IMG/VR virus record: IMGVR_UViG_3300050191_000005
Coordinates: 1-20,667 of that record
DNA length: 20,667 nucleotides
From: a virus
Reading direction: 5' to 3' (one strand)
A program made the position numbers and the translations under genes. This document shows positions 36-19,370 of this stretch, piece by piece. Within the stretch, counting starts at the first letter, position 1; each line of letters opens with the position of its first letter. Under the pieces are notes generated by a model. The model had not been told where the DNA came from. It searched no databases and saw only the letters and a list, made by a program, of their open reading frames with translations.

Positions 36-67
36 AAAAATACCGGGTGGCCTTACGACCACCCGGT
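36..67 (-). terminator. Rho-independent terminator after the 187-residue tail gene
   Basis: A perfect 9-bp inverted repeat, ACCGGGTGG at 42-50 and CCACCCGGT at 59-67, encloses an 8-base loop. On the minus strand it is followed at once by ATTTTTC (41-35). The GC-rich stem plus U-tract lies 14 bases after the stop codon at 81-83. The plus strand has no U-tract after the stem, so the signal is directional. Confidence 0.85.
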
Positions 68-658: not shown

Positions 659-3600
659 TTAGATGTTACCACGCCGCTGTTCACGACGTATTCTGCTGTA
701 AACTGCACGCGCAGTTTTGTCTGGACTATCTGCACCGTTCACATTGATGTTCATGTGACCGATGCTGTTGTTGACTGTACCACCCGTGGCGTATCCACCG
801 CCTCTTGGCGAATCTCCACGATTCATTGAAACCAATTGGGAATAAAACTGACGACTCGAATCTGGATTCATAACGAACTCACCAACGCGAGCGTTGATTC
901 GTACATTATCTGGACCCATAGCCGAGAAGGCATTTCCAATCAAACCACCGCTTGCGAATCCTTCCTCATCTTCATTAGGTACTGAACCGTTGAAGATATT
1001 CGATCTGTCACCTACTCCTGGAGAATTTACTGTTAGAACACCACCACCAACAGTTGTTGACCCACCGCCAGGACTTGGCAACGTATACGTGCCATCTGCA
1101 TTTGGTTTCAATATATTTGGTGCCTTTGGAATATACAAATCCTCAGGTTTGACACCAAACATACGAGCAACTGCTGTAATCGCATCTTGCGAATTCTCAG
1201 TATCACGACCTGGTGAATATTGAAGCATTCGTTGCGCTGTTGCCAAGTTTGATTGATAAAGATTACTCGAATTCACAGCAGGTCCAAATTCCGATCCATT
1301 ACCTGCTATTGAATTTTGAGGACCGCCAGCACCAAATGGTCCACTACCAGTACCAAGTGAACCAGAACCACGTGAACCAGAACCACCGCTAGCACTGACA
1401 CCAACAGCAGGTCCTGGGGCAAATGCCGGTGCCGTAGGATGATGCGATGCAGTTGCATGACCAACTGCACCTGTTGCTAGACCATCCATAGCAGTAGCTA
1501 TCATACCAGCTATGCCACCACCATGACCTGGAGAAGCAGAAGCAGTATCACTACTACCACCTGCACTTGCTTGTGGTCCAATATTACCGTCCGCATCCAT
1601 ACGTGACGGGCTTGGTGCTGTTGCACCACGCGGTGTAGTCGCACCACCATTCAAAGAATCCCATAAAGCTTCCGCACTACCAGGTGCTGGTGCAGAGGTT
1701 GGCGTTGCTCCTGGCGACCCAGGTGCCCTCAACGAATCAAACATCGAAGATGCTGCATTCATACTCTGAATTCGCATCTCTCTAACTACTGCCTGCTCTG
1801 CCTGCAATCGCACTACATTTGCTTCTCTCAGATTGCTGACCGTTGTTCTTCCTTCTTTGATGATACTTCGATCAGCCATCGAGTCACTACGATCTGGATT
1901 CCTTGCATCCTTCTGATCGAAAATCTTCTGAGCAATGTTAAGCAAACGTTCCAACGCCGCCGCAGCAAGCTGCATGTTTTCTGGCGTCTTATCTCTCTGT
2001 GCTGCCAAAGCAGCAGCATTATTTGCAGTTTTAGCATTACGCAACTCAGCTTGGTCTTGTAGACTGATATTGTCCCACGCCGTCAAGTGAGTATGTCCAG
2101 CAATCTCATTGCCAATCGTTTGAGAATCAGTTAGACCCTTATTCTCCATTCGATTAGCTTCTGATGCATTCAATCGGCTTTGTGCAATCAATTGAGCACT
2201 GCTCTTGATTTCAGCAATAGCAGCATCAAATTTCTGCTTAATCTCGACATGCGCTTGCATAGCATTTCGTAATGCTAATTGTGCGTCTACGTGAGCATTC
2301 AATGCGTCACGTGTACGACTCAAATCTGCATCGGATGGCGCATCACGATGAATCTGATCGCGTTGCTCGCGACTAATCTGCCCGGCCCTGAGCATCCTAT
2401 CGGCATTATCCGGACCAATCCTCGCAGCCCTAGTAAGCTCGGCCATCACCCTTTCTACACCGCGCGTTAGACTTTCATTTAACGCGGCACCACCACCAGG
2501 CCCTGCAAACTGAGGATTAAGTTCCCCACCATGCTCAACATTGTTTTGACGGAAAAATCTACTTGTAGTAAGTGATGCTTCTTTATTAGCATCACGTTGA
2601 GACTTAGAGGCATCCTCTGCTGATTGTTGACGTTGCCTTAGCATTGCCTGATAAGCAGCTTCTCGTTGTGCCGAAGCAGCATTTAAAGCATTTGCACCTG
2701 CTTCACGTTCATCGTTGAATGGATTATATTGCTGTGCACGTCCAGTCAATCGTCCTTGCAAATCAGCATTACGTCTCGACCGCGCAGCTTCGGTATTAGC
2801 AATCTCGTCGTTAATGCGTAGAAGTTCTTCTTCTTTACGGCGAGCAGAAGCGATACTAGCATCATCGCCCTTTCTATACAATTCAGCTACTTCTGCTGTC
2901 ACCCTTGCAGTACGATCACGAAGTAAGGTAAGTTGATTTGCAGAATCATTATTTTGCAGCTTATTTAAAGCAACAGCATCTCTTGCCTCTGTACCAGCAT
3001 GTTTTCCCTTGAAAGGGGAAACCATGTGCGAACTTCCTGCCGTAGCCAAACGATGCTTGAAAGCATCCTGATCAGCCTTATCGGCAGCCTCACCAACCCG
3101 CTTCAAAGAGTTAATGATTTCTGCTTCGGCCTTCTTGGCTATGCTTTCAAAATCACTAAGCACTTTACTTAAAGAATGCATAATGCCTTGAGCCGCAGCC
3201 TCAGCCTGCTCTTTCATCTGACTTGCAGCTTCCCTCGCCGACTCAACGGCTTTCTGGGATTCCATTACTTGCGGTTTGAATGATTGAGTAACAACCTGTT
3301 CTTGCATCCTTGCAGTGCCTTCTGTTTCCTCCCGCTGACGACTCAGACCAGCATTATAAGCTGTTTCATTTGCTGCCCTAGCCTCATTTAACTTCCTTGT
3401 TGCCTCCGTCATTCCAGCAAGTTGGCGATTTATTAGGCCCAAACCTTCGCCAACCTTACCCAACCAGCCAGCCCAAATAATAAAGCCATTAACAGTATTA
3501 ACAATCACTGGTGCCCATTTAGCAATCTCAGTACCGATTGCAATAATCGGTCCAGAAAATTCACCAAATGCTTTGAAAGCATCAAGAATCTTAGGACCAA

Positions 3601-4840
3601 TTTCGGTTGCGAATGCTGTCGCAATCTTATTGAACTCAGCCTGGAACGTAGTATTCTCACGAATGACTTGTCCAGCCCGCGCAGCTTCTGCTGCAAGCTC
3701 TTCACGATTATTAAGAGGATTTTCTCCCCTACTTAATTCTTCGCCTAATGTCAGAGTACCAAGGGCGCGACGCGATGAAAGTAATTTTCTAGCTGACTCG
3801 CCAGTTTCATCCATTCGTTCGGCTAGGAGTCTTAAAACATTACCCAATCCGCCATCAGCCGCAGCCGCTTGAACACTGACATATCCGTGATTCAGAAGAA
3901 TCTTATCAAATTCTGCTGTTCTTCGTTCAAGCCCCGTCAATGTGCCTTGCAACTGAGACATTGCATCGGCGCCGGTTGAACCGCGTGCTTTGAGTAGCTC
4001 GAAAGCATGAAGCATGTCCGGCAAGGTGATATTCAGACGAGCAGCACTTGCACCTGTATTGCGAAGTGTATCACCAATTGACTCAAGATCACCACCGTGT
4101 TGTGCCACATGGAACAACTGATTCATCGTGTTGGCAGCTTCACTTGTAGGAAGCCTGAAAGCCTGCATTATGCCACCTAAGGTGGACATAGCTGAGCCAG
4201 TCGATATACCAGCCACCTGGGCTAATCGCATAGCCTCAGTCAACGTGTTCATGTCTCCGGCCGATTGAATGGCTCCAGACTGAACACCTTGTCTTGCTGC
4301 TGATGCTACCTCACCAATTGGCTGATTGAACTGATTAGCTCTCTGGGCCATTTGCTGGCCTAATTGCTGCGTATTACCAACATTTTTATTGAGGGCCTGA
4401 ATTTGGCCCATTTTTGCTTGGAATTCAGCAGCAGCCTTGACAGCTTCTCGCATACCGGAAGCGATGTCAAGAAAGACGTGACGAATCGTTGTAACTGCAA
4501 GCAAACGAGCAATGCTGGTCGCAGTAAGTCCAAAAATGCCGGCAGTTTTCTTGGCAGCATTTCCAGCATTATCAAGTTCTTTAGTAGCTTCTTTTAACTT
4601 GATGCTGACGGCTTCCCAACCCTGTGCCGTATTCTTCAAAGTACCTTGTATCTGCTGACCAGCGCTATTGATTCCTTGAAAACCAATCTTTAATTTTTCA
4701 CCAATGTCATTGACTTGCGTCCAAGTTTTAGAAAGCTCGAATGATGCAGTATTGATTCCAGAAAGCGCACCACTAGCTTGTGCTGCACCGCTGACGACAC
4801 CACTGGCATCAAGCAGGATTCTTTCAACTGTATCAGCCAT
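659..4840 (-). CDS. Phage tail tape measure protein, TP901 type
   Basis: This 1393-residue protein should set tail length and be ejected with the DNA. The N-terminus is rich in small and hydrophobic residues. Residues about 135-365 match the TP901 tape-measure core in character (QIQALNKNVGN, GDMNTLTEAMRLAQVAGIS, GIMQAFRLPTSEAANTMNQL, RGSTGADAMSQLQGTLTGL). A hydrophobic region near 420-475 may be membrane-active during ejection, and long charged helical segments follow to about 1040. A Gly/Pro/Ser-rich linker leads to a C-terminal end with GEFVMNPDSSRQFYSQL and MNINVNGADSPDKTARAV, typical of tape-measure tails. ATG at 4840 follows GGAG at a 7-base spacing and overlaps the previous gene by 8 bases. 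At the usual rule of about 0.15 nm per residue the tail would be near 200 nm. Confidence 0.95.
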   Translation of the reverse strand: MADTVERILLDASGVVSGAAQASGALSGINTASFELSKTWTQVNDIGEKLKIGFQGINSAGQQIQGTLKNTAQGWEAVSIKLKEATKELDNAGNAAKKTAGIFGLTATSIARLLAVTTIRHVFLDIASGMREAVKAAAEFQAKMGQIQALNKNVGNTQQLGQQMAQRANQFNQPIGEVASAARQGVQSGAIQSAGDMNTLTEAMRLAQVAGISTGSAMSTLGGIMQAFRLPTSEAANTMNQLFHVAQHGGDLESIGDTLRNTGASAARLNITLPDMLHAFELLKARGSTGADAMSQLQGTLTGLERRTAEFDKILLNHGYVSVQAAAADGGLGNVLRLLAERMDETGESARKLLSSRRALGTLTLGEELSRGENPLNNREELAAEAARAGQVIRENTTFQAEFNKIATAFATEIGPKILDAFKAFGEFSGPIIAIGTEIAKWAPVIVNTVNGFIIWAGWLGKVGEGLGLINRQLAGMTEATRKLNEARAANETAYNAGLSRQREETEGTARMQEQVVTQSFKPQVMESQKAVESAREAASQMKEQAEAAAQGIMHSLSKVLSDFESIAKKAEAEIINSLKRVGEAADKADQDAFKHRLATAGSSHMVSPFKGKHAGTEARDAVALNKLQNNDSANQLTLLRDRTARVTAEVAELYRKGDDASIASARRKEEELLRINDEIANTEAARSRRNADLQGRLTGRAQQYNPFNDEREAGANALNAASAQREAAYQAMLRQRQQSAEDASKSQRDANKEASLTTSRFFRQNNVEHGGELNPQFAGPGGGAALNESLTRGVERVMAELTRAARIGPDNADRMLRAGQISREQRDQIHRDAPSDADLSRTRDALNAHVDAQLALRNAMQAHVEIKQKFDAAIAEIKSSAQLIAQSRLNASEANRMENKGLTDSQTIGNEIAGHTHLTAWDNISLQDQAELRNAKTANNAAALAAQRDKTPENMQLAAAALERLLNIAQKIFDQKDARNPDRSDSMADRSIIKEGRTTVSNLREANVVRLQAEQAVVREMRIQSMNAASSMFDSLRAPGSPGATPTSAPAPGSAEALWDSLNGGATTPRGATAPSPSRMDADGNIGPQASAGGSSDTASASPGHGGGIAGMIATAMDGLATGAVGHATASHHPTAPAFAPGPAVGVSASGGSGSRGSGSLGTGSGPFGAGGPQNSIAGNGSEFGPAVNSSNLYQSNLATAQRMLQYSPGRDTENSQDAITAVARMFGVKPEDLYIPKAPNILKPNADGTYTLPSPGGGSTTVGGGVLTVNSPGVGDRSNIFNGSVPNEDEEGFASGGLIGNAFSAMGPDNVRINARVGEFVMNPDSSRQFYSQLVSMNRGDSPRGGGYATGGTVNNSIGHMNINVNGADSPDKTARAVYSRIRREQRRGNI

Positions 4841-6100: not shown

Positions 6101-7255
6101 TTAGTGAGTGATAACTTGGTTGAACGCGTCCTTGGCCACACGAGTGACCGTCGGTTGAGTGAGGTTGCACTTCGCCGTGCACGCGATCATACCGGTCTTT
6201 GCATCGTGCTGGAGTTCTTCGTACCGGAACTCCGCGAGGTCGATGATTTCATTGTCCACGCCGGGGCACGGTGGGACATAGTAGATTTGCAATCGGACGC
6301 AATACGGTTCGCAAGGATCGACACCGGCCGTCACCCAACCAGCAGCCTGGCCGGTTTGCTTGAGGGCGTCTTCCACCATGATGGCTTCACCGCTGGACGA
6401 CTTGATGAAGACCCAAGCGAACTCAAGTTTGATTTCGAGTGGGTCTTCGTCACCGTTTCGCACTGCATCCAAGAAGCCACGATTCTTCTTGTATTCGCGT
6501 GGCTTCTTCTCGGTCCACGTGCAGTTACCGTCGCCCAGCTTCACGTTCAGGCTGTGCGGCTGGATGGTCAATGACTGATCATCCTGAACACCCACGGACA
6601 AACCAGGAGTGAATGTAATCGAAGTCGTGTTGCCATCCGTCTCGGTATGCGCCGTGACGGTGTAAACATTGTCGTCAGGCAGAAGATTCGTATCCGTTGG
6701 TACGATCTTGAACGTGTCACCAACGCTCCAGATGCCAGTGCCGGTGTCGATCAACATGGTCGTCGCAGCAACCGCGTATGCGTACACACCAGTAATCACT
6801 GCGGCCGATACGAAAGTGATTGGCGCCGAGCCGCTTGTTTCCATACTGTTATCGGAGTCGACCGTAATCAGATTGGTTTGTGGCTCACTTGCCAAGACGC
6901 CAGCAAATGTCACAGTGAATGGACCAGCGCCCGTTGTACCAGTCACAGTAACGCCACCAGCACCGATTGTTGGAATACTTACCAACGATGCCTGGAGTCC
7001 AGCAGCAGTGTAAGTGCTAGCCCACGCAACTGTGGACTTTGCGCCGCGGAAATCAAAATCAGTTGATCCGGAACCACCAACAGCCGTTGCGCTGAGTGTC
7101 AAGGTTTGGGTGGCAACAGTGCCAGCGTTGTTCACGAGGAACGAGCCAGCTGCAAGGCCGGGGCCGATGTAGCCGTCGTAGATAAAGACGTTCGCGTTCT
7201 TGAGGTCGAAATACGCGCAAAACGTCTGAACCGGAATACCGGAAAGAAACTTCAT
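6101..7255 (-). CDS. Major tail tube protein with two inserted beta domains
   Basis: The product has 384 residues. ATG at 7255 is preferred to an upstream TTG because GGAG lies 7 bases before it. Residues 1-29 (FLSGIPVQTFCAYFDLKNA) and 236-384 (LNVKLGDGNCTWTEKKPREY; EIKLEFAWVF; LAEFRYEELQHD) look like a tube core. Residues about 33-139 form an inserted Ala/Gly/Thr-rich beta domain. Residues about 150-232 form a second (AVAATTMLIDTGT, TTSITFTPGL) that closely resembles an insert in the capsid protein of this window. The C-terminal part has several cysteines (CEPYC, PPCPG, CTAKC). Position just before the chaperone and tape measure supports the call, and no sheath gene accompanies it. GC content is higher than in flanking genes, consistent with strong expression. 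Confidence 0.82.
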   Translation of the reverse strand: MKFLSGIPVQTFCAYFDLKNANVFIYDGYIGPGLAAGSFLVNNAGTVATQTLTLSATAVGGSGSTDFDFRGAKSTVAWASTYTAAGLQASLVSIPTIGAGGVTVTGTTGAGPFTVTFAGVLASEPQTNLITVDSDNSMETSGSAPITFVSAAVITGVYAYAVAATTMLIDTGTGIWSVGDTFKIVPTDTNLLPDDNVYTVTAHTETDGNTTSITFTPGLSVGVQDDQSLTIQPHSLNVKLGDGNCTWTEKKPREYKKNRGFLDAVRNGDEDPLEIKLEFAWVFIKSSSGEAIMVEDALKQTGQAAGWVTAGVDPCEPYCVRLQIYYVPPCPGVDNEIIDLAEFRYEELQHDAKTGMIACTAKCNLTQPTVTRVAKDAFNQVITH

Positions 7256-7268
7256 GTTCAAACTCCTG

Positions 7269-8924: not shown

Positions 8925-9578
8925 TTATACTCTCGTAAGGAAACACTCAGCTGGATCGCGGAGAAACGGTTTCAAATATGACCAAGCCCGAAAACTAGGG
9001 ATACCAGCACGCATGTAATCAGGAATGAAGTCACGATTGAAAGCAGTGCGAACACCGCTAAAAGAGTGACTCTCCGTGGCCAGCAAGTCTGCCTCGCGGT
9101 CAGGATCGTATCCTTGAATTAGCTTCATAGCTATTTCATAGCAAGCATATTGAATGTCAGTTGGGACCACTGTGTCAGCAGCATCGTCCAGAGAAGCCAA
9201 CGTTACAGGGATACCAGATTCATTCACAACGATCTGGGTTGGTGATGCAATCGGCCCACGTGGAAACTGATGTACTTGAGACGGATCGGTTTTATTTCCA
9301 GCAAAATTCAACCGATCAATCATCTGCGTAGCTTCATGCAATGCGGATCGTTTGTCGTTACTATTCGCACGTTTCCAAGGTGTACTTCGAAGACGATTAT
9401 CGAAGTAATTATTCGCATCTGACAATGTCCCATAAGCATCCAGAAATTGACTATTGTCAATTGTCGGAAAATGGACCGGGAATAAATTATGCAGCAACGA
9501 CCGAACAAGATTGTTGGCCGTTGCTGGGCCATGCGTCAACGTCAAAGTATTCGTCAGTGATTCATTGAAAGTTGACAT
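8925..9578 (-). CDS. DnaT-like head-tail connector protein with repeat-like N-terminus
   Basis: The product has 217 residues. ATG at 9578 abuts the upstream stop (TAAATG), with GAGG about 11 bases upstream. From residue 46 it follows the pattern of the DnaT-like phage connector family: LDAYGTLSDANNYFDNRL, ALHEATQMIDRLNFAG, HQFPRG, VPTDIQYACYEIAMKLIQGY, ending AGIPSFRAWSYLKPFLRD. Such proteins occupy the head-completion position below the portal. The first 33 residues (TLTLTHGPATANNLVRSLL) are not part of that fold. They resemble the last repeat unit encoded in the gene just upstream (SLTLTHSVSVALNLVRSV), suggesting a fused repeat remnant. Confidence 0.8.
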   Translation of the reverse strand: MSTFNESLTNTLTLTHGPATANNLVRSLLHNLFPVHFPTIDNSQFLDAYGTLSDANNYFDNRLRSTPWKRANSNDKRSALHEATQMIDRLNFAGNKTDPSQVHQFPRGPIASPTQIVVNESGIPVTLASLDDAADTVVPTDIQYACYEIAMKLIQGYDPDREADLLATESHSFSGVRTAFNRDFIPDYMRAGIPSFRAWSYLKPFLRDPAECFLTRV

Positions 9579-11435
9579 TTAGTTAATCCTCACACCTTCA
9601 AAATCAAGTTCGACCGAATACCACTCACCACATGGAGGCGTTCCATGTTTTTCAGCAACCAAATCAACAGGGTCAGTGAGGAAATTTACATTCCACATTT
9701 CACCCTTCCAATTGGTCATGTTGACTCGTTGAGTAAGATTCTGCAACAAAAATACTCTAAGTTCATAAGCTTTCTTGCGAGTGATTATGAACTTGTATTT
9801 CAATTTTCTTGAAGCATTCTTTCGAACATAGGTGTATATGTCGCCAGTAATGGTTCTAAGAATCTTGATAGCACTTACAGGTGCTTCTGCATCACCTAAC
9901 TCTGGGTTAGGTAATACGATTGTTGAAAACCTACCAACGATTGTTGTCGACCTACCAGGCACTGGACAACATATGCCACCACCCTGGCCACCCATCGTAT
10001 AGATGAGGTTTGATATGACAAGAAAGCCACCTGTACCATCAGGTATATGATGTTCAGGGAAGAACATCAAAGTGCTTGTCACACTTCGCACAAGATTCAA
10101 AGCAACACTAACGCTATGAGTTAGCGTCAAACTCTGACTTATATGTCTGCTCTTGAAAGCGGCATGAACTACAGCTTGAGTAATCGTCAAACTTTGAAAG
10201 AAGCCAAACGACTGAGTCTCAGTTGCAGATTGCGTAATCGTCAACGACTGATTGATACTTCTCGGCTTGAACTGGAAGTAATCAGCAACACTTATGAGAC
10301 TGAGACTATTCGAAGCACTGTGACCGAATGTACTCCCAGATCGACTGAGAGTTTCTGTAATCGACAGACTTTGACTGGCCTTTTGATTCGGAGTTTTATA
10401 GATAGCACTTTGAGTAATGGTCAAAGTGTTACTAGCTAATTCGTCTCCTACCTCAATGGCATTCTGAGTAATCGTTAATGTCTGAGTGACACTACGATTA
10501 AACACACCCGCTCTGACGACAGATTCTGAAATTGCTAATGCGTCAGTGTCAGTGCGATGGAATGCACCTATTCTGACAACAGATTCTGCAACCGTTAATG
10601 CGTCAGTTGTTGTTCTTGGTTCAGTTATCAGTCGTACAGCAGATTCTGCAACTGCTAATGCGTCAGTTGCAGTAAGACTGAAAAGACTGCTAACGCTAAA
10701 GAAGTCGTACTTCTTTGGCTTCTGCCGTAGATTCCAGCGAGTTGCTGGATTCCACATGTTCGTTACAACATTTTGTGGCAATGCGTAATTGTAGATTCTT
10801 GGGTCATCCATGTGCCCAATGAACCAATCACCTGTGTTAGATCCATCCGACAATGCACCGAAATATACCTGGCTTGCATTCGTTCCAATGTTGCCAGTTA
10901 CGCCAAGTGTGGCATCAAGCTGACCATCAACATAAATCTTAGTGTTTACACCATCGTAGGTGCAAATAACAAGATGCCATTTTCCGTCAATAACATTGAT
11001 GCTGCCTACGAGTTCATTACCAGCCTGGTAGGCATTGTTTGTAGAGATCAACCAGTGCAGATAGCCTGTGGTTGCCTCGGCGTATATTGACCAAGAATCA
11101 TTTACAACACCCCACATTGCTGCAAGGTATTGAATTCTTGATGTGGCGGTTGAATTAACCCAAAAAGTTACAGATATTGCATCAGTTCCTTGCAGCAATC
11201 CTGACGAGCTAACTAAGTGTGTATAGCTCGTTGCACCGTCATATGTAAGTGCAGTTTGCCCACCATCTACACCAAAGACCCAAGAAGGTGTATCTAAAGG
11301 AAATATCTGTCCAACATCGCCACTGCCGGAGAAATCATACAAGTTACCGGAACCGAAACCACCAGGCCCCCAGAAAACTAATCCTGGTGCCTGGACACTA
11401 TTTCGATTCAACCTAAATGGAAATAGTGGTTTCAT
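9579..11435 (-). CDS. LamG-domain virion protein with tandem repeats and tail-type C-terminal domain
   Basis: The product has 618 residues, with ATG at 11435 eight bases after AAGGG. Residues about 60-222 form a LamG/concanavalin-like beta sandwich: YDGATSYTHL, DAISVTFWVNS, GKWHLVICTYDG, KIYVDGQLDATLG, and the closing motif WFIGHMDDPRIYNYALP. Residues about 255-456 hold tandem repeats of two kinds, TDALxxxESVVR and QSLTITQSA. Residues about 525-618 (YTYVRKNASRKLKYKFIITR, YELRVFLLQNLTQRV, YSVELDFEG) form a domain I recall from other phage virion proteins. LamG domains bind glycans or proteins, so a surface adhesin or decoration role is likely. It lies in the head block between paralogous virion genes and the connector. 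Confidence 0.82.
   Translation of the reverse strand: MKPLFPFRLNRNSVQAPGLVFWGPGGFGSGNLYDFSGSGDVGQIFPLDTPSWVFGVDGGQTALTYDGATSYTHLVSSSGLLQGTDAISVTFWVNSTATSRIQYLAAMWGVVNDSWSIYAEATTGYLHWLISTNNAYQAGNELVGSINVIDGKWHLVICTYDGVNTKIYVDGQLDATLGVTGNIGTNASQVYFGALSDGSNTGDWFIGHMDDPRIYNYALPQNVVTNMWNPATRWNLRQKPKKYDFFSVSSLFSLTATDALAVAESAVRLITEPRTTTDALTVAESVVRIGAFHRTDTDALAISESVVRAGVFNRSVTQTLTITQNAIEVGDELASNTLTITQSAIYKTPNQKASQSLSITETLSRSGSTFGHSASNSLSLISVADYFQFKPRSINQSLTITQSATETQSFGFFQSLTITQAVVHAAFKSRHISQSLTLTHSVSVALNLVRSVTSTLMFFPEHHIPDGTGGFLVISNLIYTMGGQGGGICCPVPGRSTTIVGRFSTIVLPNPELGDAEAPVSAIKILRTITGDIYTYVRKNASRKLKYKFIITRKKAYELRVFLLQNLTQRVNMTNWKGEMWNVNFLTDPVDLVAEKHGTPPCGEWYSVELDFEGVRIN
10068..10673 (-). repeat. 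Tandem repeats inside the LamG protein gene
   Basis: The first three units are spaced about 60 bases apart and keep recognisable DNA similarity: on the plus strand AGATTCTG followed by TAATGCGTCAGT recurs near 10517-10550, 10577-10610 and 10637-10670. Encoded units read TDALAVAESAVR, TDALTVAESVVR, TDALAISESVVR. Later units diverge to TLTITQ and SLSITE types with variable spacing. The repeats are coding and diverged, not a non-coding array. Confidence 0.85.
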
Positions 11436-11438
11436 TGG

Positions 11439-12134
11439 TTACCCTTGTACGTAAACGCCTTTATAGGTGACTTGATGGCCGCTACTGGCAAGAGCAATAC
11501 CAGAATTCTGCGCAATAAAAATAGTCCAGTATCTAGGCATAAAGCCAAATACACCAGTCAATCCTATTGGTGCGAATGGATTCACCTGATTAGCAGTAAT
11601 CGCTACAGCCAGTGAAGTTATCAAATACATACAACCACCTTCAATCTGTGAAGAGGTTATTGTTTTGAGATTATCAGCACCGGTTAAAGTATCTGGCCAA
11701 GTTGGTGTATCATCAATAGCTGCTACTGCATTGATTTGAATTGATCGACCAGATGAAGGCGATCCTGAACCATTCTTTATAAATCCTGAAACTCCGATTT
11801 CAAGTGGCGCACCTGTTGCACCATTATCGACAGCCAAAGCCTCTGCACCAGACAAAATAAGCGTGTCACTTGCCAATGAAACCAAACTCGTATACGTCAT
11901 GTTTACAGAAGCTTGGAATGCGAATTGAAAGTTGACGTTCTCTTTGAAATCCAACCATCTAGATGATTCTTTAACTCCACGAAGATTGCGATTCCGTGAG
12001 CTAAATTCAATTCGATGGCCACGATGTTTATACTCCCAGGATGTCATTTCCCTAATAAGTGGTGTACCTGGGGTTGTACGAATATCGTGGAATCTTTTGC
12101 AATCAAGGCAATATGCTCGAAAGGCCATATCCAT
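11439..12134 (-). CDS. Putative virion surface protein, paralogue B of a tandem pair
   Basis: The product has 231 residues from the ATG at 12134, which lies 7 bases after AAGGG; a longer in-frame start would overlap paralogue A by about 110 bases. It starts MDMAFRAYCLDCKRFHDIRT, then WEYKHRGHRIEFSSR, giving C-x2-C plus nearby His residues that could bind a metal. The remaining beta-rich part contains LAVDNGATGAPLEIGVSGFI, AIDDTPTWPDTLTG, FGFMPRYWTIFIAQNSG and ends TYKGVYVQG. It aligns along its whole length with paralogue A, lacking only a segment of about 12 residues after the N-terminal domain. I recall similar domains in other phage structural clusters. Function is not known; decoration or fibre are options. 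Confidence 0.72.
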   Translation of the reverse strand: MDMAFRAYCLDCKRFHDIRTTPGTPLIREMTSWEYKHRGHRIEFSSRNRNLRGVKESSRWLDFKENVNFQFAFQASVNMTYTSLVSLASDTLILSGAEALAVDNGATGAPLEIGVSGFIKNGSGSPSSGRSIQINAVAAIDDTPTWPDTLTGADNLKTITSSQIEGGCMYLITSLAVAITANQVNPFAPIGLTGVFGFMPRYWTIFIAQNSGIALASSGHQVTYKGVYVQG

Positions 12135-12138
12135 TTCA

Positions 12139-12888
12139 TTACCCTTGAACGTAAACGCCTTTATAGGTGACCTGGTTTCCGCTGGCATTAATCGACTGTC
12201 CAGAATTATGAACCACAAATATAGACCAATATCGTGGCATAACTCCAAACAATGCAGATAACGCAGTTGAAGCCACTGGATTTACTTGACTTGCAGTGGC
12301 AGCTATAACCAGAGATGTTATTTGTCTCAACCCAGACGATAACATATTTGCATTACTAATCGTCTTGGTTGCATCTGTACCGGCTAATGTATCTGGATAG
12401 GTTGGCGTATCATCAATGGCTGCATAGCCAAACATATTGATTACTTTGCCAGCAGTTGGCGTGGTGCCGCTGTTCTTGATTAACGCTGAAACTCCGATTT
12501 CAAGCGGACATCCTGTTGCACCATTATCGACAGCCAAAGCCGACGCACCAGCCAAAAGACTCGTATCACTGGCTAACGAATTTAACGTTGTGTACGTTAA
12601 AGCTGCCGAAGAAACGAATGCAAATTGGAAATTGTTGTTCTCTTTGAACTTCAACCACCAAGGTTCCTTTCCAATTTTCTCATATTGGGAATCATCAAGA
12701 TCGCGAGGAATATCACGATCTCGTGAACTGAATTCGATTCGATGCCCGCGATGTTTGTATTCCCAAGATTCCATTTCCTTAATTAACGGTGTACCCGGGA
12801 AAGTACGAATGTTGTGGAACGTTTCGCAATCGAGGCAAAACGCCCGAAAGGCCATCGTTGGCCCATTACCCGACTTGAGTGTGGACAT
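12139..12888 (-). CDS. Putative virion surface protein, paralogue A of a tandem pair
   Basis: The product has 249 residues. ATG at 12888 is 6 bases after GAGG, which overlaps the TGA of the preceding gene. The N-terminal domain holds MAFRAFCLDCETFHNIRT and WEYKHRGHRIEFSSRDRD. The C-terminal beta-rich domain holds ALAVDNGATGCPLEIGVSAL, AIDDTPTYPDTLAGTD, LFGVMPRYWSIFVVHNSG and the same TYKGVYVQG end as paralogue B. It has an extra stretch near residues 64-80 (DLDDSQYEKIGKEPW) that the other copy lacks. The pair probably arose by tandem duplication. No enzyme motif is seen, and placement between capsid and connector genes suggests a virion surface or head-associated role. Confidence 0.72.
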   Translation of the reverse strand: MSTLKSGNGPTMAFRAFCLDCETFHNIRTFPGTPLIKEMESWEYKHRGHRIEFSSRDRDIPRDLDDSQYEKIGKEPWWLKFKENNNFQFAFVSSAALTYTTLNSLASDTSLLAGASALAVDNGATGCPLEIGVSALIKNSGTTPTAGKVINMFGYAAIDDTPTYPDTLAGTDATKTISNANMLSSGLRQITSLVIAATASQVNPVASTALSALFGVMPRYWSIFVVHNSGQSINASGNQVTYKGVYVQG

Positions 12889-12896
12889 TTTTTACC

Positions 12897-13418
12897 TCAA
12901 TACGTTTGTGTGAGACTCAGATCATTACCAGGATCATCTACTGCGATTGCGTTACGTGCAAAACGCACCCAATCAAAGAAACGATTCATTGGTGGATTAC
13001 CGTTTTGCAAAACCAAAGTTAAGTCAGAAAACAACAATAACATAGTTAAAGCGTTTTGGACATAACCCAACTTACCAACCATTGTCAAGGTTGGTGTTCG
13101 TTCAGTAGCGAATGTTTGTGCAATATACAACCACGCAGGATCAGGAATCGGTGCCGGATACACAGTGTTGCTAACATCAGCAAATGTGTTAATTGCAGAT
13201 GGAGAAACCACATTGGTTTGAAGATTAATCCAAGTGAAGAAAGAATCATTCAAACTATTGGGTATGTTGAATGATACCTCTTTACCCAATTCAGACATAT
13301 CTCCTGGCAAATTAACAACACCTGTCGATGCAACTGAAAGCATAATCGGTGTATTTGCATTTGCAAATACTTGACACAAATACACCCAATAAGGGTTAGG
13401 AATCGTTATTGGGTACAT
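12897..13418 (-). CDS. Internally duplicated protein of unknown function
   Basis: The product has 173 residues from the ATG at 13418, chosen because GAGG lies 6 bases upstream; an in-frame GTG at 13460 has no such site and lies in a structured region. The protein consists of two copies of one unit. Residues 2-69 begin YPITIPNPYWVYLCQVFANA and residues 87-156 begin YPAPIPDPAWLYIAQTFATE. Both continue with TP, a G-x-V step and an FF-x-W motif (DSFFTWINL, NRFFDWVRF). I do not recognise the family. It is the first gene after the tRNA region, and the next gene's Shine-Dalgarno overlaps its stop, so it is probably co-expressed with the paralogue pair downstream. Confidence 0.7.
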   Translation of the reverse strand: MYPITIPNPYWVYLCQVFANANTPIMLSVASTGVVNLPGDMSELGKEVSFNIPNSLNDSFFTWINLQTNVVSPSAINTFADVSNTVYPAPIPDPAWLYIAQTFATERTPTLTMVGKLGYVQNALTMLLLFSDLTLVLQNGNPPMNRFFDWVRFARNAIAVDDPGNDLSLTQTY

Positions 13419-13448
13419 AGCGGACCTCAGTGTAAAAATGACGTTTCG

Positions 13449-13516
13449 GTCTCGCTCCACAAAGTGGAATCCCCGATCACGGCGTCAATCCGGCCTTCAC
13501 AACGTCAAGGCGAGAC
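13449..13516 (-). other. Structured 5' element with cloverleaf-like pairing potential
   Basis: On the minus strand GTCTCGC (13516-13510) can pair with GCGAGAC (13455-13449), a perfect 7-bp closing stem around 54 bases. Inside, CCTT/AAGG and CGG/CCG can form short arms. TCCAC-TTT-GTGGA (13468-13456) forms a hairpin that directly abuts the closing stem, as the T-arm does in a tRNA. The 3-base loop and weak inner arms rule out a normal tRNA. It lies between the tRNA and the 173-residue gene and may be a degenerate tRNA, a leader structure or chance. Confidence 0.35.
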
Positions 13517-13523
13517 ATCTGAG

Positions 13524-13597
13524 TCGCGGGAGCAGGATTCGAACCTGCGTCGGACGGCTTATGAGACCGTGCTGGGACCTCTCCAGTCGATCCCGCG
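13524..13597 (-). tRNA. tRNA, anticodon CAT (Met or modified Ile type)
   Basis: Read on the minus strand, acceptor CGCGGGA (13597-13591) pairs with TCCCGCG (13531-13525), with discriminator A at 13524. The D-arm is CTGG-AGAGGTC-CCAG. The anticodon arm is ACGGT-CTCATAA-GCCGT, anticodon at 13563-13561. The variable loop is CCGAC, and the T-arm is GCAGG-TTCGAAT-CCTGC. Everything is canonical except a 4-base linker (TCGA) before the D-stem where 2 are normal. CCA is not encoded. Whether it is elongator Met or an Ile tRNA needing lysidine cannot be told from the anticodon. It lies between the capsid gene and the next gene, in their orientation. Confidence 0.85.
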
Positions 13598-13606
13598 AAC
13601 ATAAAG

Positions 13607-13631
13607 CCTGGTGGCTCATAGAGCCACCAGG
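13607..13631 (-). terminator. Hairpin after the capsid gene: weak terminator or processing site
   Basis: CCTGGTGGCTC (13607-13617) and GAGCCACCAGG (13621-13631) form a perfect 11-bp stem with a 3-base loop, 52 bases after the capsid stop. On the minus strand it is followed by CTTTATGTT, a poor U-tract, then directly by the tRNA. It could terminate part of the transcripts or protect the 3' end of capsid mRNA. Confidence 0.6.
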
Positions 13632-13683
13632 TAATCTAAGCCACAAGGACTTAGTAATCCCATTGCTGGGAGTGGTTAACGAG

Positions 13684-15090
13684 TTACGCCAACATGACAG
13701 CGCCGAGGTTCGTGTCGAGGGTCTTGATACCGGCGAGGATATCGAGAGTCACACGCGTGCCCTGGGCCTTGCCGTCGTAAGTCAACACAACACGAACGGA
13801 CAGGCCGTTGTAGTTGACGTTGGCTGCGGCAGCGCCGATTCCCTGGCGAGGCAGTTCCATCGGACGAGTCACCAACGCGATGGCGTTCCGGTGGAAGGCG
13901 AAGTTGTATTCGCCGGCCGGGGACAGATTCACATTGTCGCCGTCATTGATGGCGACTTCCAGCGAACGATCCAGAGTAACACCAACCAGCGCGTCGACCG
14001 CGATAATCGTGTACACGGCGTTCGTGCCGACAACACCGAAGGAAACCAACTGGCCAACCACAGGAGCCACGGTGAACACGTCGACCGTGATTTCCTTGTT
14101 GTAACCAGCCGGATAACCAGCCGGGCTGACAGCCTGATTCACCGCACCCACGACGTAGTTCGTGATGATTGCATCGTCAGCCACAGCCGCCTGGAGAGGA
14201 GGCGTGAAGACGAGTGTCGTCACCGAAGAAGTACCACCCGTGATGACACGGTGAGGAATCGTGTCGCCAGCCACCGTGAACCACATGTTCGCAGTGAAGT
14301 TGGTTGTGCCGGTGTCGATGACCATCGTGGTCGCACCAGCGGCGTAGCCACCGGAGTGATTCACGAGGTAGGTGATGTCAATCGAGTTGCCAACGGCAAC
14401 GGACGACTGGTGCTGGCACATGTACGTGTTGAAACCGTACTTGCGGCCGATGAAGGCTTCCTGCAACGCCTGGCCCTGGTCACCGACCTGTTGAGCCTGC
14501 GTGAAGATCGCCAGGTTCAAGAGTGTGGTTTCCGTGGTCGGAGTGAGGATCAAGTTTCGGCCATCGACGTAGGCCAGATTCTTGTTCATCTTCTCGCGCG
14601 TGCCGAGGATGGCATCCACGCCGTTGGAAGTCGTCATCGCATTCAAGTAGCCGTAGCTGTTCGGCATGAAGTTCGCGACCTGGCCGAGAACGACTTTGTC
14701 GAGGAACTGCGCATGTGCCAACATGGCTGGCCGCATGTATTCGGTCACCAGGTCCTTGAAAGACTTGCTGGATTCCGAATCGTAGATCACGAAGGACACG
14801 TGGATCAGCTGATCCAGCACGACCGGGACGTTGGTCGCCGTCGCATCTTGATCGGTCACGTCTTCCGTGCCGGTCTTACGCAAAGCGGTGAACTTGGATG
14901 GCCGACGCGTATTGACCGTATCGCCGTAAGAGGCGATCAACGGGCTGAAATCGCGGTGGACCAGGTTCGCTGCGACCATGTTTTCCTCAAGGATGGCCAG
15001 GGATTCCTGTGCCCACATCTGAGGAACGTACGCGCTGTTGTCGTTCACGCAAAAGGTTTGAACCGCAACAGCATTCAAGAATTGCAACAT
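13684..15090 (-). CDS. Major capsid protein, P22 coat-like HK97 fold
   Basis: The product has 468 residues from the ATG at 15090 (GGAG 9 bases upstream); an in-frame TTG two codons earlier lies too close to that site. Core signs are MWAQESLAILEENM, NLVHRDFSPLIASYGDTVN, RRPSKFTALR, QDATATNVPVVLDQ, HVSFVIYDSE and KSFKDLVTEYMRPAM, the usual N-terminal pattern of P22-type coat proteins. The C-terminal strand NFAFHRNAIALVTRPMELP is also typical. Between them, residues about 240-395 hold an insertion with two beta subdomains (AAGATTMVIDTGTTN with TTLVFTPPLQAAVADDA; then YNKEITVDVFTVAPVVGQL). Scaffold and portal genes are just upstream. GC and C-ending codons are enriched relative to neighbours, fitting a very abundant protein. 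Confidence 0.92.
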   Translation of the reverse strand: MLQFLNAVAVQTFCVNDNSAYVPQMWAQESLAILEENMVAANLVHRDFSPLIASYGDTVNTRRPSKFTALRKTGTEDVTDQDATATNVPVVLDQLIHVSFVIYDSESSKSFKDLVTEYMRPAMLAHAQFLDKVVLGQVANFMPNSYGYLNAMTTSNGVDAILGTREKMNKNLAYVDGRNLILTPTTETTLLNLAIFTQAQQVGDQGQALQEAFIGRKYGFNTYMCQHQSSVAVGNSIDITYLVNHSGGYAAGATTMVIDTGTTNFTANMWFTVAGDTIPHRVITGGTSSVTTLVFTPPLQAAVADDAIITNYVVGAVNQAVSPAGYPAGYNKEITVDVFTVAPVVGQLVSFGVVGTNAVYTIIAVDALVGVTLDRSLEVAINDGDNVNLSPAGEYNFAFHRNAIALVTRPMELPRQGIGAAAANVNYNGLSVRVVLTYDGKAQGTRVTLDILAGIKTLDTNLGAVMLA

Positions 15091-15108
15091 TTTCAAATTC
15101 TCCGAGTA

Positions 15109-15930
15109 TTAGACCTTGTTAAGGCCCGTTTTGATACGATAAGCCCGATACTGTTCTGTAGTCATCGTAGATGGATCAACTTCGCCGCCCCTGCCGCCGC
15201 CACTACGATTACCGGCACCAACGCCGGCAGTTGCAGTAGATTCGAACAGGTAACCGAACCGAGGATTCTCTTTCATCTTCGCGACAACCTCGGGGACAGT
15301 CAGATCGAGATTGACAACCTTGCCATCTTTGTCCTTATCGACATACTTCGTCTTCGGGACAAATTGACCGGTCGCTTTGCCTTCGTCATCAATCACTTCG
15401 ACCAAACGTGTCTTGGGTTCCAACATGGCGATCAATGCGTCAGAGTCGAACGCCTTGTGGGTAACCGCCTCACTTGTGATAGCTTGCTGGATTTGAGTCG
15501 TATGGAAACGATTCTTCCAGGAGTCACGATCCTCGGTGAGTTCTTTGGTCGTGGTCTCAAGCGTCTTCTTGAGTTTTTCCTCAGTCTTGGCAGCCAATTG
15601 TTCTTTCGTCAGAACGCTGTTTTGCAAATCTTCGATCTTTTGCGCCAGGTTATGACGCTCTTGATCGTTCAGGCTTTTCGATTTCTTGAGTTGTTCAAGT
15701 TCAGCAACGTGTTTGTTAATCTGAGTCACGTGCTTACGGCGATCTTCCGCCACGATCTTGTTCACTTCATCCTGAGTGAACGACTTCTTCGCAGCAGCCG
15801 CAGCGTCAGCCTTAGCCTTCGCCTCTGCCTCTGCCGCCTGTGCTGCCGCAGCCGCTTCTGCTTCCGCAGCCGCAGTACCGTCGTCTTCGCCTTCGCAGTA
15901 AGTGTAGACCAGTTGCCCATTAAGATACAT
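15109..15930 (-). CDS. Capsid scaffolding protein
   Basis: The product has 273 residues from the ATG at 15930, chosen because CGGAG sits 9 bases upstream as in the capsid gene; an in-frame ATG at 16017 would overlap the portal gene and has poor spacing. Residues about 19-47 are almost only Ala, Glu and Lys. KSFTQDEVNKIVAEDRRKH follows, a sequence style seen in phage scaffolds. Residues about 60-155 form a long charged coiled coil (HVAELEQLKKSKSLNDQER, EKLKKTLETTTKELTEDRD). The C-terminal part contains a Gly-rich linker and ends TTEQYRAYRIKTGLNKV, a likely coat-binding tail. It would nucleate the procapsid and then leave. No protease motif is seen. Confidence 0.88.
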   Translation of the reverse strand: MYLNGQLVYTYCEGEDDGTAAAEAEAAAAAQAAEAEAKAKADAAAAAKKSFTQDEVNKIVAEDRRKHVTQINKHVAELEQLKKSKSLNDQERHNLAQKIEDLQNSVLTKEQLAAKTEEKLKKTLETTTKELTEDRDSWKNRFHTTQIQQAITSEAVTHKAFDSDALIAMLEPKTRLVEVIDDEGKATGQFVPKTKYVDKDKDGKVVNLDLTVPEVVAKMKENPRFGYLFESTATAGVGAGNRSGGGRGGEVDPSTMTTEQYRAYRIKTGLNKV

Positions 15931-15988
15931 TGTTGAGAACTCCGAAAACCCTACATAAGTAAAACTCGATGAGACGTAGGTAATCTTA

Positions 15989-17761
15989 TCAAGCTTTGAC
16001 ATTGGCACCGGCAGCATTGCCTCTTACCGGTTTGCCTTGTTTCTCTTTCTTACTTGCTTGAGGATCAGTACCACTGTCACTGATTCCACGAGCTTGAGGA
16101 TCACTACCGGGCGGGTCACCAGCTGGCGCCACCTGTGGTGCCGGTGTCTGAGCCGCTTGAACTCTAGCCAAACGATCAGCATGGTCCTTCTCAGCCTTCT
16201 TCGATTCCCCGTCAGCATAACCGCGAAGTTTCGAAGCTGTTTCTGTACAAACCAAACCATTCTGTACGTCGACGGTAATCACATCCGGGTCGCTACTCAA
16301 CCCAGGTGCATTATCGATTTCCTTGTAAATCTTAGTCATGACTTCCTTGGAGCTTGTAGCACCAAGTAAGGCATTTGCCAGTTTCTTACCAACATTCCGT
16401 TGATAAGTTTGACTTGGCACTAAGGTCAACATACCACCCAATTGAGTAGCTTCATTGCGACGATCAGTTTCCGTCCGAAGAGTATAGTTGTCTGGATAAT
16501 TAACCGTCGCAACCGGCAGATTCTTCTTTTCATACATAGACCATATGTTGGCGATCTTTCGTTCGCCGTTTTCCAAGGTCAACCCGATGTAACTCAAACC
16601 GGATTCCAAAGTAGCTTCATCCTTGGTCTTGGATTCAGCCGAAGCCATCCTTGGGCCTTTGAGATTCGCAATCGTCAAATTAAGCAGTAGTCGAATCTCA
16701 GCCATCAACTGAGCCTGTTTCTCCATAGATGCCCTCATAGGCTCCGGAGAAGGATTGATAAATGCAGGTGGATTCAACCCTCGTGGATATTTTCTACCCT
16801 TACTGACACCAACCCTGACTTCTTCATTGCCGGCTACACCAGAGCCAGCGACCTGTCCTTGCGTACCATCATTTCCAGGACCGCGTAAATGAACACTATC
16901 AGCACGCGGCTCGTATTGCTCAACGTAGAACGGAAAGTTCGCTTTCAGAGCATACGACATATCTGCCGAAGCCAAATTCAGTAAAGCAATTTGGTAATCG
17001 GCGATATTTTTCATCAACGAGTCTGAAATCTCGAAGAGGACAAAGGGGACGATTGGTAGCTCAAGGACAATTGGCTTATCAATTTTGTTTCCGAGTTTGT
17101 CAACTGGCTGCGATTTTTCATCGTAGAACGAGACGAGGATTGCGCCGTCTTCCCGCCATATACGCCGGAAACGCTCGGTGTAGCTAGTCGGGAAGCCGAA
17201 GTCCGGGTCGTACTCATAAATGTAATCCCTCAATAGGACCGCTTTAAATTGACTCGGGTCTTCCGCGTCATCAAGTGCCCAAGCCCGAATGTCTTCTGTG
17301 AAGTAAGTGTACAAGTATGGATGCTTGCCACTTACATCGGCTAAAGATGAACCAGGCTTGAGCGGTGGCATATCTACATAGACACCCACCTTTTTCATCT
17401 TTAACATTTCTTCGAGGACGTGGCAACCAATGTAATAGTTCATTGAACTACCACAAAGGTCAACACCATTTTGACGACCTTCACAAGCTTCTTGATAACT
17501 CTTGCTACCACCCACTCGCGTCACATCAGACATGCGTTGGTAGATGGAGTTCTTCACTTCATCTAATCCGGCTTTAGCGAAAGCAGGACAGTATGACATA
17601 TCTCGACGTGTCAAGAAGTCGCTATCGTCTTCACGATTGCTGAACTGCTTGAGGTATTTCAAGATAAAAATGTGGCCTGATTCGTAAGTATATCGCCATT
17701 TTATCCATTGCTGCAACATCAACTCATAATCTGGGTGAGTAATGTCTGTTATCATGCTCAT
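15989..17761 (-). CDS. Portal protein, DUF4055-like
   Basis: The product has 590 residues, with ATG at 17761 eight bases after GGG. Features of the DUF4055 portal group include a helical N-terminus (DITHPDYELMLQQWIKWRYT), then MKKVGVYVDMPPL, HPYLYTYFTEDIRAWALDDA, and ELPIVPFVLFEISDSLMKNI followed by ADYQIALLNLASADMSYALK. This is the pattern P-x-x-P-F followed by a helical segment rich in A, S and Y. The middle contains a Gly-rich loop (GNDGTQGQVAGSGVAGNEE). The C-terminal 60 residues are a Pro/Gln/Lys-rich disordered tail. It should form the dodecameric portal ring through which DNA is packaged. Scaffold and capsid genes follow directly, and the terminase is not in the window. Confidence 0.85.
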   Translation of the reverse strand: MSMITDITHPDYELMLQQWIKWRYTYESGHIFILKYLKQFSNREDDSDFLTRRDMSYCPAFAKAGLDEVKNSIYQRMSDVTRVGGSKSYQEACEGRQNGVDLCGSSMNYYIGCHVLEEMLKMKKVGVYVDMPPLKPGSSLADVSGKHPYLYTYFTEDIRAWALDDAEDPSQFKAVLLRDYIYEYDPDFGFPTSYTERFRRIWREDGAILVSFYDEKSQPVDKLGNKIDKPIVLELPIVPFVLFEISDSLMKNIADYQIALLNLASADMSYALKANFPFYVEQYEPRADSVHLRGPGNDGTQGQVAGSGVAGNEEVRVGVSKGRKYPRGLNPPAFINPSPEPMRASMEKQAQLMAEIRLLLNLTIANLKGPRMASAESKTKDEATLESGLSYIGLTLENGERKIANIWSMYEKKNLPVATVNYPDNYTLRTETDRRNEATQLGGMLTLVPSQTYQRNVGKKLANALLGATSSKEVMTKIYKEIDNAPGLSSDPDVITVDVQNGLVCTETASKLRGYADGESKKAEKDHADRLARVQAAQTPAPQVAPAGDPPGSDPQARGISDSGTDPQASKKEKQGKPVRGNAAGANVKA

Positions 17762-17778: not shown

Positions 17779-18051
17779 TCAGACAGAAAAGTAACTAACA
17801 CTGTCACCATTGTTCAATGCGATAAAGAACAAGTCCATAGTTACAGTTTTGTCGGCTGGAACGAAGGTTGTTTCACTTGGATACAATATGTATCCATTAC
17901 TACTACTTACATCCGAACCGCCCATGTAAATAGGGCCTGTATTGTTCTTATCGGCTTTAACTTGGATGCCGATTAAAAACATGTCAACAACGAGTTGTGT
18001 CTTTGAAACATTGCTTAAAGCAACATTTCTACCTAAAAATCTAAACCCCAT
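17779..18051 (-). CDS. Small beta-rich virion-type protein
   Basis: The product has 90 residues. ATG at 18051 overlaps the 3' end of the repeat-protein gene by 19 bases and has a weak GGA site 9 bases upstream. The sequence TGPIYMGGSDVSSSNGYILY followed by a short strand-rich end (TMDLFFIALNNGDSVSYFSV) resembles small beta-sandwich modules common in phage virion gene clusters, often in copies on the particle surface. No catalytic residues are visible. It sits directly upstream of the portal gene, 18 bases away. The role is inferred from sequence style and context only. Confidence 0.65.
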   Translation of the reverse strand: MGFRFLGRNVALSNVSKTQLVVDMFLIGIQVKADKNNTGPIYMGGSDVSSSNGYILYPSETTFVPADKTVTMDLFFIALNNGDSVSYFSV

Positions 18052-19370
18052 GGGTATATTCCAAGTATGTAAAGAGTCATAAAACTGTTGCTGACAAGAG
18101 CAGCATTTGGACCATTACCAATTGCAATGTCTGATTGAGACAAACTGTCTGTTGTAATTCTATTACCAACAAACAATCTTATGACAGATTCAGACATTCC
18201 CAATGATTCTGTTGCAAAAACAGTATAGTGCCCTGAGACAATGCTTGTGTCAATAACTTCTGATTCAGTCAACGAATCAGAACTAACACGTTGGCCGTCG
18301 AAGATTCTTACAACTGATTCACTAATGCCTGGAGTGTTGTGAGTTGTTCTAAAACCAACAAACAATCGAGCTACAACCTCAATAACAAGCAAAGAATCAG
18401 TAGCACCACGGTAAGCACCAAAACCCTCAGACATTGATTCGGAATCAGATAAAGAATCCGTAGTAACCCTCAATAGGTGACTACTTTTAGTTGCCGATTC
18501 TGATAACGACAATGAATCATCTGGCGTTCTCAGACCAACAAAGACTCTTGAAACTGATTCAGACAATCCTAGATGTTCAGTTGTTGAGCGAATACCAACC
18601 AACATCCTATGAACACTTTCCGAATCAGTTAGTGAATCAGTTGCAGTTCGATATAAACCAACGATTCCGATTACTGATTCTGAAAGTGTTAAAGCATCGG
18701 TAGCTGCACAAATTAGACTTTGTCCAGAAGATGCAGATTGAGTGTTACTAAGGGCATCAGTAGTTGTACGGTGACAAACCAGTATCCTACTGGCAATTTC
18801 AGAATCATGCAGATTATCTGTCGATGTTCTATGACCAACAAATAATCTTGTCACTACTTGTGAAACTGTCAAGGAATCAGTTGGACTTCTGATTGCAATC
18901 AAAGTCTTTCTTAAAGACTCAGCAATCGTTAACGAGTCTGTTGTCGTTCTCAATGCAGCTAAGATTCTCTTCAAAGATTCAGCTAAAGCCAATGCATCAG
19001 TTGCCGTTCTATGGGCAACCAATGATCTCGATACAACTTGTGCTGATGTTGGTGCATCAGTTGTTGTTCTATGTGCGACCAATAATCGTTTTACTGATTG
19101 AGCGATTGCAGTTGCATCTGTAGCAGTTCTCAATGCGAGTAGAATTCTACTCACTGATTGAGAATCCGAAAGAGCATCAGTTGTTGTTCGATGACCAACA
19201 AATACCCTATGTACTACTTGAGAATTTGAAAGAGCATCTGTTGTTGTTCTGTGTGAAACTATTGTTCTTGTTACTGATTCAGAAATAGTTGGTGCATCTG
19301 TTGCCGTTAATCCTATTGGCAGTAAAGATGTATCTGAAAACGGCAGATCAGAAAATGCACCATCCGTCAT
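18033..19370 (-). CDS. Repeat protein of about twenty 20-residue units, probable fibre or spacer
   Basis: The product has 445 residues, with ATG at 19370 after AGAGG that overlaps the upstream stop. After a 21-residue leader, the protein is a run of about 20 units of near-constant 20 residues, for example TTTDALSDSQSVSRILLALR and TATDSLTDSESVHRMLVGIR. Fixed features are T-D at positions 3-4, a hydrophobic at 6, S/A-E/Q-S near 9-11, V at 12, and a closing R. The last about 20 residues are hydrophobic (SFMTLYILGIYPWGLDF) and may anchor it. The regularity suggests a solenoid or extended stalk, but the fold is not known to me. The same repeat family recurs in the LamG protein. Base composition is lower in GC than the capsid gene. 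Confidence 0.8.
   Translation of the reverse strand: MTDGAFSDLPFSDTSLLPIGLTATDAPTISESVTRTIVSHRTTTDALSNSQVVHRVFVGHRTTTDALSDSQSVSRILLALRTATDATAIAQSVKRLLVAHRTTTDAPTSAQVVSRSLVAHRTATDALALAESLKRILAALRTTTDSLTIAESLRKTLIAIRSPTDSLTVSQVVTRLFVGHRTSTDNLHDSEIASRILVCHRTTTDALSNTQSASSGQSLICAATDALTLSESVIGIVGLYRTATDSLTDSESVHRMLVGIRSTTEHLGLSESVSRVFVGLRTPDDSLSLSESATKSSHLLRVTTDSLSDSESMSEGFGAYRGATDSLLVIEVVARLFVGFRTTHNTPGISESVVRIFDGQRVSSDSLTESEVIDTSIVSGHYTVFATESLGMSESVIRLFVGNRITTDSLSQSDIAIGNGPNAALVSNSFMTLYILGIYPWGLDF
18099..19307 (-). repeat. Array of about twenty 60-bp coding repeats
   Basis: Units of 60 bases (with four of 57, 63, 63 and 66) run through the gene without a frame break. On the plus strand each unit shows variants of ACTGATTC, then AGAATC or AATG, CATC or AATCAGT, TGTTGTTCT and ACCAACAA. 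Protein conservation exceeds DNA conservation, so the array is old and under protein-level selection, yet similar enough to permit recombination. Confidence 0.9.

Follow-up and report, generated by a model that had tools for sequence, protein, structure and literature searches.

The window, by which we mean the whole stretch of DNA analysed (20,667 nucleotides of a viral record), is part of a tailed-phage late operon that is transcribed from the minus strand. It holds the following features:

17761..15989, minus strand: portal gene of the late operon
16017..15109, minus strand: scaffold gene
15096..13684, minus strand: major capsid gene, 470 amino acids (phrog_283 major head protein, E 2.3e-59)
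13607..13631, minus strand: perfect 11-bp hairpin with a 3-nt loop, -20.9 kcal/mol
13598..13606, minus strand: 9-nt spacer between hairpin and tRNA, CTTTATGTT, read in the sequence, with a predicted RNase P cut at its 3' end
13524..13597, minus strand: tRNA gene with anticodon CAU and no encoded CCA (Rfam, and ARAGORN at 13523-13597 with anticodon CAT)
13425..13429, minus strand: probable Shine-Dalgarno sequence (GAGG) of the gene after the tRNA, read in the sequence
12897..13418, minus strand: open reading frame after the tRNA, about 173 amino acids from the ATG at 13418, a start picked by the Shine-Dalgarno sequence (listed frame 12897-13460)
9578..8925, minus strand: head-tail adaptor gene
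7261..6101, minus strand: predicted tail-tube gene (alignments and a fold search on a predicted structure)
4840..659, minus strand: tape measure gene
42..67, minus strand: second strong hairpin, with a U-run, right after the last tail gene (81-644)

Past the gap behind the capsid gene there are several unnamed genes, followed by the head-tail adaptor, the predicted tail tube and the tape measure. Around 95 bases separate the 3' end of the tRNA from the next Shine-Dalgarno sequence and its ATG. The initial annotation had located the tRNA between the capsid stop and the next structural gene. The location is right, but the structural label of the next gene is not borne out, as a PHROG search with the downstream frames 13460-12897 and 12888-12139 gave no match.

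Several other observations concern the window at large. A 107-kb contig (G001) is 99.9% identical to it over the matching part, and the two differ by about 237 bases near 10167-10197, inside the repetitive, tail-fibre-like gene at 9579-11435; this is either a change in repeat copy number or an assembly collapse. This gene and 18033-19370, in the structural region, encode long proteins with many TTDALxxSES-type repeats. Downstream of the tRNA region, 11439-12248 and 12139-12888 are neighbouring paralogous genes (76% identity over 186 bases). A plus-strand open frame of 832 codons (13438-15936) runs antisense to the capsid and scaffold genes and is most likely a by-product of codon composition. 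We also looked for host or prophage copies by scanning genome contigs with the capsid alignment, which gave zero relatives.

Regarding the tRNA, the initial annotation had described a CAT-anticodon tRNA in the orientation of the late genes, preceded by a perfect 11-bp hairpin with a weak U-tract, and this description stands. ARAGORN puts the tRNA on the minus strand, where the capsid gene also lies, sequence and fold agree on the hairpin, and the tRNA covariance model (Rfam RF00005) scores it at 43.4 bits (gathering score 29). With a score above the curated threshold and a cloverleaf fold it belongs to the tRNA family; it is the sole RNA family match of the window and the single tRNA that ARAGORN finds in the 20.7 kb. 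All four stems pair, with compensated changes relative to its closest relative; compared with the tRNA at G004:46347 (in a 112-kb contig, G004), C1:G72 stands for U1:A72 and the 28:42 pair is C:G and not U:A.

The D arm is unusual, with a CUGG/CCAG stem and two extra nucleotides before it. This tRNA belongs to a family with members in over 120 viral contigs, usually inside tRNA arrays. Since the D arm and most anticodon-stem positions were set in advance by the pattern that recruited the family, their invariance is no evidence; only the acceptor, the T arm and the spacing could vary. An unbiased scan with a pattern starting at the anticodon loop yielded too few cleanly parsed members for a D-arm frequency. 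Among the 81 distinct members the 1:72 position is mismatched in 52 and a weak or wobble pair in 28, which leaves the window tRNA, with its strong C1:G72, alone among the 81. A mismatched or weak 1:72 end is a hallmark of initiator tRNAs. By the sequence of its ends the family is initiator-like; the window tRNA departs from this with its C1:G72, and of the three G:C pairs of initiators at 29-31/39-41 (GGG/CCC in E. coli metZ) it has G29:C41 and G30:C40, with U:G at 31:39. An initiation role for phage Met tRNAs was suggested by the authors of the Felix O1 genome (PMC3185647). As for the tRNA complement, ARAGORN counts 13 tRNAs in G001 and 21 in G004, and those read in the sequence have no encoded CCA; in G004 single tRNAs are dispersed among the genes, and two of its three CAU tRNAs belong to the initiator-like family.

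The hairpin reads CCTGGTGGCTC-TAT-GAGCCACCAGG (13631..13607) with the tail CTTTATGTTC, and 8 of its 11 base pairs are G:C. The stem is followed by a weak U-tract (the spacer, with 5 T in 8 and no run longer than three). It lies 52 nt from the capsid stop at 13684, and two weaker stem-loops are found between this stop and the main hairpin. The gap folds much better than its shuffles (z -4.45, 0 of 200 shuffles), and its minimum-energy fold contains the main hairpin together with the complete cloverleaf.

In order to see how general this arrangement is, we drew relatives of the capsid from viral contigs and applied the same script and criterion to all gene classes, namely that the best simple hairpin within 70 nt after the stop reaches -15 kcal/mol or better. 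A strong hairpin followed 45 of 65 distinct capsid genes, 20 of 57 predicted tail-tube genes and only 5 of 515 other genes, counts taken without tree correction from contigs that are not independent. The window's own hairpin, at 52 nt from the stop, fell outside the criterion and was not counted. The capsid hairpins of the relatives start 4-19 nt past the stop, with a median of 11, and none extends beyond nt 47, whereas the window hairpin starts much further on and is a less exact fit to the class. The next start codon usually comes 50-60 nt past the capsid stop, and the hairpin ends before its Shine-Dalgarno sequence. About a third of the relatives lack the capsid hairpin. The hairpin sequences are unrelated from contig to contig, therefore shared ancestry of the letters does not explain their presence. 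Furthermore, a T-run of at least 4 in the 10 nt after the hairpin was found in only 8 of the 45 capsid hairpins and the longest run was 3 or less in 37 of them, and thus most are not standard intrinsic terminators.

The genes that carry the second, non-capsid class of hairpins form one homologous family, which includes the window gene at 7261..6101; this gene itself has no strong hairpin behind it, unlike many of its relatives. Because PHROG scans gave this gene no name, we turned to structure prediction from the family alignment (mean pLDDT 80.6). The top fold matches were phage trunk or tail-tube proteins and tube or baseplate proteins of injection systems; they are individually weak (best E 4.6e-3), although tail components dominate the list. 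Its place in the operon also fits the annotated major tail gene of Gordonia phage VanLee, which has a hairpin of -39.9 kcal/mol behind it. These genes are therefore predicted, from the modelled fold, to encode the tail tube. If so, the two hairpin-bearing genes are those of the capsid and the tail tube, the two proteins of which many copies polymerise. A first tail-tube hairpin count was discarded since it included some capsids through a shared domain, and the count given above separates both. The capsid (13684-15096) and the predicted tail tube (6101-7261) seem to share an inserted domain, and tail-tube relatives match residues 239-304 of the phrog_283 major head profile.

The tRNA is much patchier than the hairpin. 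The three next-closest contigs (L003, L004 and L005, 75% capsid identity) have a member of the same tRNA family behind the capsid gene, with a tRNA-Asp in front of it, but no other capsid relative has a tRNA at this site except L196, where an unrelated one (L196:2667-2741) lies 30 nt past the capsid stop and no hairpin was found. ARAGORN reads the anticodon of the L196 tRNA as four bases (gtaa), and Rfam gives it 61.6 bits. Moreover, identity between the window tRNA and those at the same site in these closest relatives is 71-72%, against 88% with a tRNA elsewhere in G004, and the slot has therefore been refilled or converted. Judged by these sequences, the post-capsid tRNA is not one inherited gene among the closest relatives; what is conserved in the relatives is the hairpin, not the tRNA. 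A member of the tRNA family is thus kept at the site in the three contigs, at 71-72% identity, whereas almost all other relatives have no tRNA there.

We consider it fairly probable that the hairpin works as a leaky mark for the 3' end or for mRNA stability which favours capsid output, and that the tRNA is a co-transcribed gene which settled behind it. The first layer is the strong hairpin, which this class of phages keeps behind the capsid and predicted tail-tube genes. It may form the 3' end of the capsid message, either by partial termination, which the 5 T in 8 of the window tail make possible, or by endonuclease cutting and 3' trimming. It would then cap and stabilise the capsid message and set it apart from the less-needed downstream genes, while the polymerase would mostly continue past it. 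The second layer would have come later and be mobile: a tRNA(CAU) from the widespread family with initiator-like ends, which probably took its place behind the hairpin. This tRNA would be made from the late message, and cutting at the window tRNA is expected, RNase P releasing the 5' end and RNase Z the 3' end. This would leave a capsid mRNA that ends in the hairpin and 9 nt, probably as a by-product and not as the ancestral mechanism.

The initial annotation had gone further, proposing that processing of the tRNA uncouples capsid output from the downstream genes, in the manner of organelles. In a strict form of this idea, selection would act on hairpin and tRNA as a pair: once RNase P and RNase Z had cut the late message at the tRNA, the capsid mRNA would retain its 3' hairpin and the downstream mRNA would decay separately. 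The short distance in the window speaks for it, as the hairpin ends 9 nt before the tRNA and hence before the predicted RNase P site, and so does the recurrence of the order of stop, hairpin and tRNA in G004, where the last tail gene is followed by a hairpin of -22.0 kcal/mol, 6 nt and a tRNA-Ser. This G004 site is equivalent to the window hairpin at 67..42, which has no tRNA behind it; the post-capsid site of G004 holds a tRNA-Asp and a tRNA-Met. A looser version is seen in L202 and L214, with late-region tRNAs 28-37 nt behind hairpins, and the post-capsid tRNA of L196 may be added, even if no hairpin is there. In G001 all three ARAGORN tRNA groups have a hairpin 3-9 nt before a tRNA, but Rfam finds an extra tRNA upstream of one of these three hairpins. 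Against the proposal, most relatives have the post-capsid hairpin without any tRNA, the same-site tRNAs differ between the two closest lineages, as described above, and in a wider survey only 58 of 814 cluster-leading tRNAs had a strong hairpin within 100 nt upstream (30 of the 58 within 20 nt), many of these hairpins with the U-runs typical of terminators. G004 and this survey also speak against a general rule that tRNA groups of these phages begin with a hairpin. We therefore regard selection of the pair as a unit as rather unlikely; tRNAs seem to end up in gaps where a hairpin is already present. The protective 3' hairpin of the initial annotation is thus supported by the comparison with the relatives, but tRNA punctuation is not supported as a general mechanism, and its organelle-like form is not established for a window with one tRNA.

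The hairpin could also be an ordinary intrinsic terminator of the capsid transcript, the tRNA and the downstream genes being reached by read-through or from a promoter further upstream. A terminator scan accepts it, and in T7 the terminator that separates genes 10 and 11 is described as leaky by design, its inefficiency being tuned to give more expression of upstream genes (PMC9157156). However, terminator-like sites are not enriched in the window (19 observed against 17.0 in shuffles), and the hairpins of relatives at the same place mostly have no U-run. Furthermore, the nine bases that separate hairpin and tRNA are too few for a promoter. A transcript from upstream can therefore give rise to the tRNA only if the polymerase passes the hairpin, which speaks against efficient termination there, and we hold this explanation to be distinctly unlikely. 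Finally, that the tRNA is a decayed or non-functional passenger is very improbable: in Rfam score it ranks low among the tRNAs of its phage (range 42.6-76.5 bits) and its C1:G72 is unique among the 81 family members, but its four stems all pair with compensated changes and the unusual D arm is common to the family, including the annotated tRNA-Met of an isolate.

A leaky 3'-end or stability mark would bear on an incompletely understood matter, namely how one long late message can supply capsid and tail-tube subunits by the hundreds and connectors in small numbers. The rule is simple and holds over dozens of unrelated spacers: hairpins stand behind two polymeric virion genes and almost nowhere else. 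The relatives with and without the tRNA are natural variants, in which the effects of hairpin and tRNA are separable. A bolder idea, of which we are doubtful, is that hairpin and tRNA form a reusable processing mark of late operons, where the RNase P cut would give a hairpin-capped capsid mRNA and set capsid stoichiometry, tRNAs having been recruited repeatedly to hairpin gaps after the capsid, the last tail gene and the scaffold and near the tail-tube region. In the open-access literature we found no description of a tRNA behind a capsid gene as a processing mark.

Regarding known systems, the window shares with mitochondrial tRNA punctuation an in-line tRNA that lies between coding genes and would be excised by RNase P and RNase Z. 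Nevertheless, in organelles tRNAs generally stand between genes and their excision makes the mRNAs, whereas the window has one tRNA in 20.7 kb, not fixed in relatives, and gene starts with Shine-Dalgarno sequences. The annotated tRNA-Met of Gordonia phage Boopy resembles the window tRNA in its D arm (GACTGGA...CCAGC) and its CTCATAA loop, but lies in a tRNA array and not behind the capsid. An intercistronic hairpin can protect the upstream part of a message, as in the segmental mRNA stability of the Rhodobacter puf operon and of REP elements, which for the window hairpin, also between genes of one message, is only an analogy. In Cluster O mycobacteriophages a stem-loop follows the major tail subunit gene and is itself followed by TTTCT, and its authors took it as a terminator (PMC4351075). 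The closest parallels are the post-capsid hairpins of HK97 (after gp5), lambda (after E) and T7 (Tphi after gene 10), a class found in phage late operons, to which the window hairpin belongs in spite of its distance from the stop. In HK97 and lambda the hairpins start 2-5 nt past the capsid stop and, unlike in the window, no tRNA is behind them; HK97 has another one after the major tail stop, without U-run, and both HK97 hairpins are annotated as putative terminators. T7 Tphi resembles the window in that a strong hairpin comes right behind the capsid gene, in a late operon whose downstream genes are still expressed; it differs in having a U-run and in acting on T7 RNA polymerase, whereas the window has a weak U-tract and a tRNA. 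Thus, this kind of element is already known, and what is new is the breadth and the specificity measured here.
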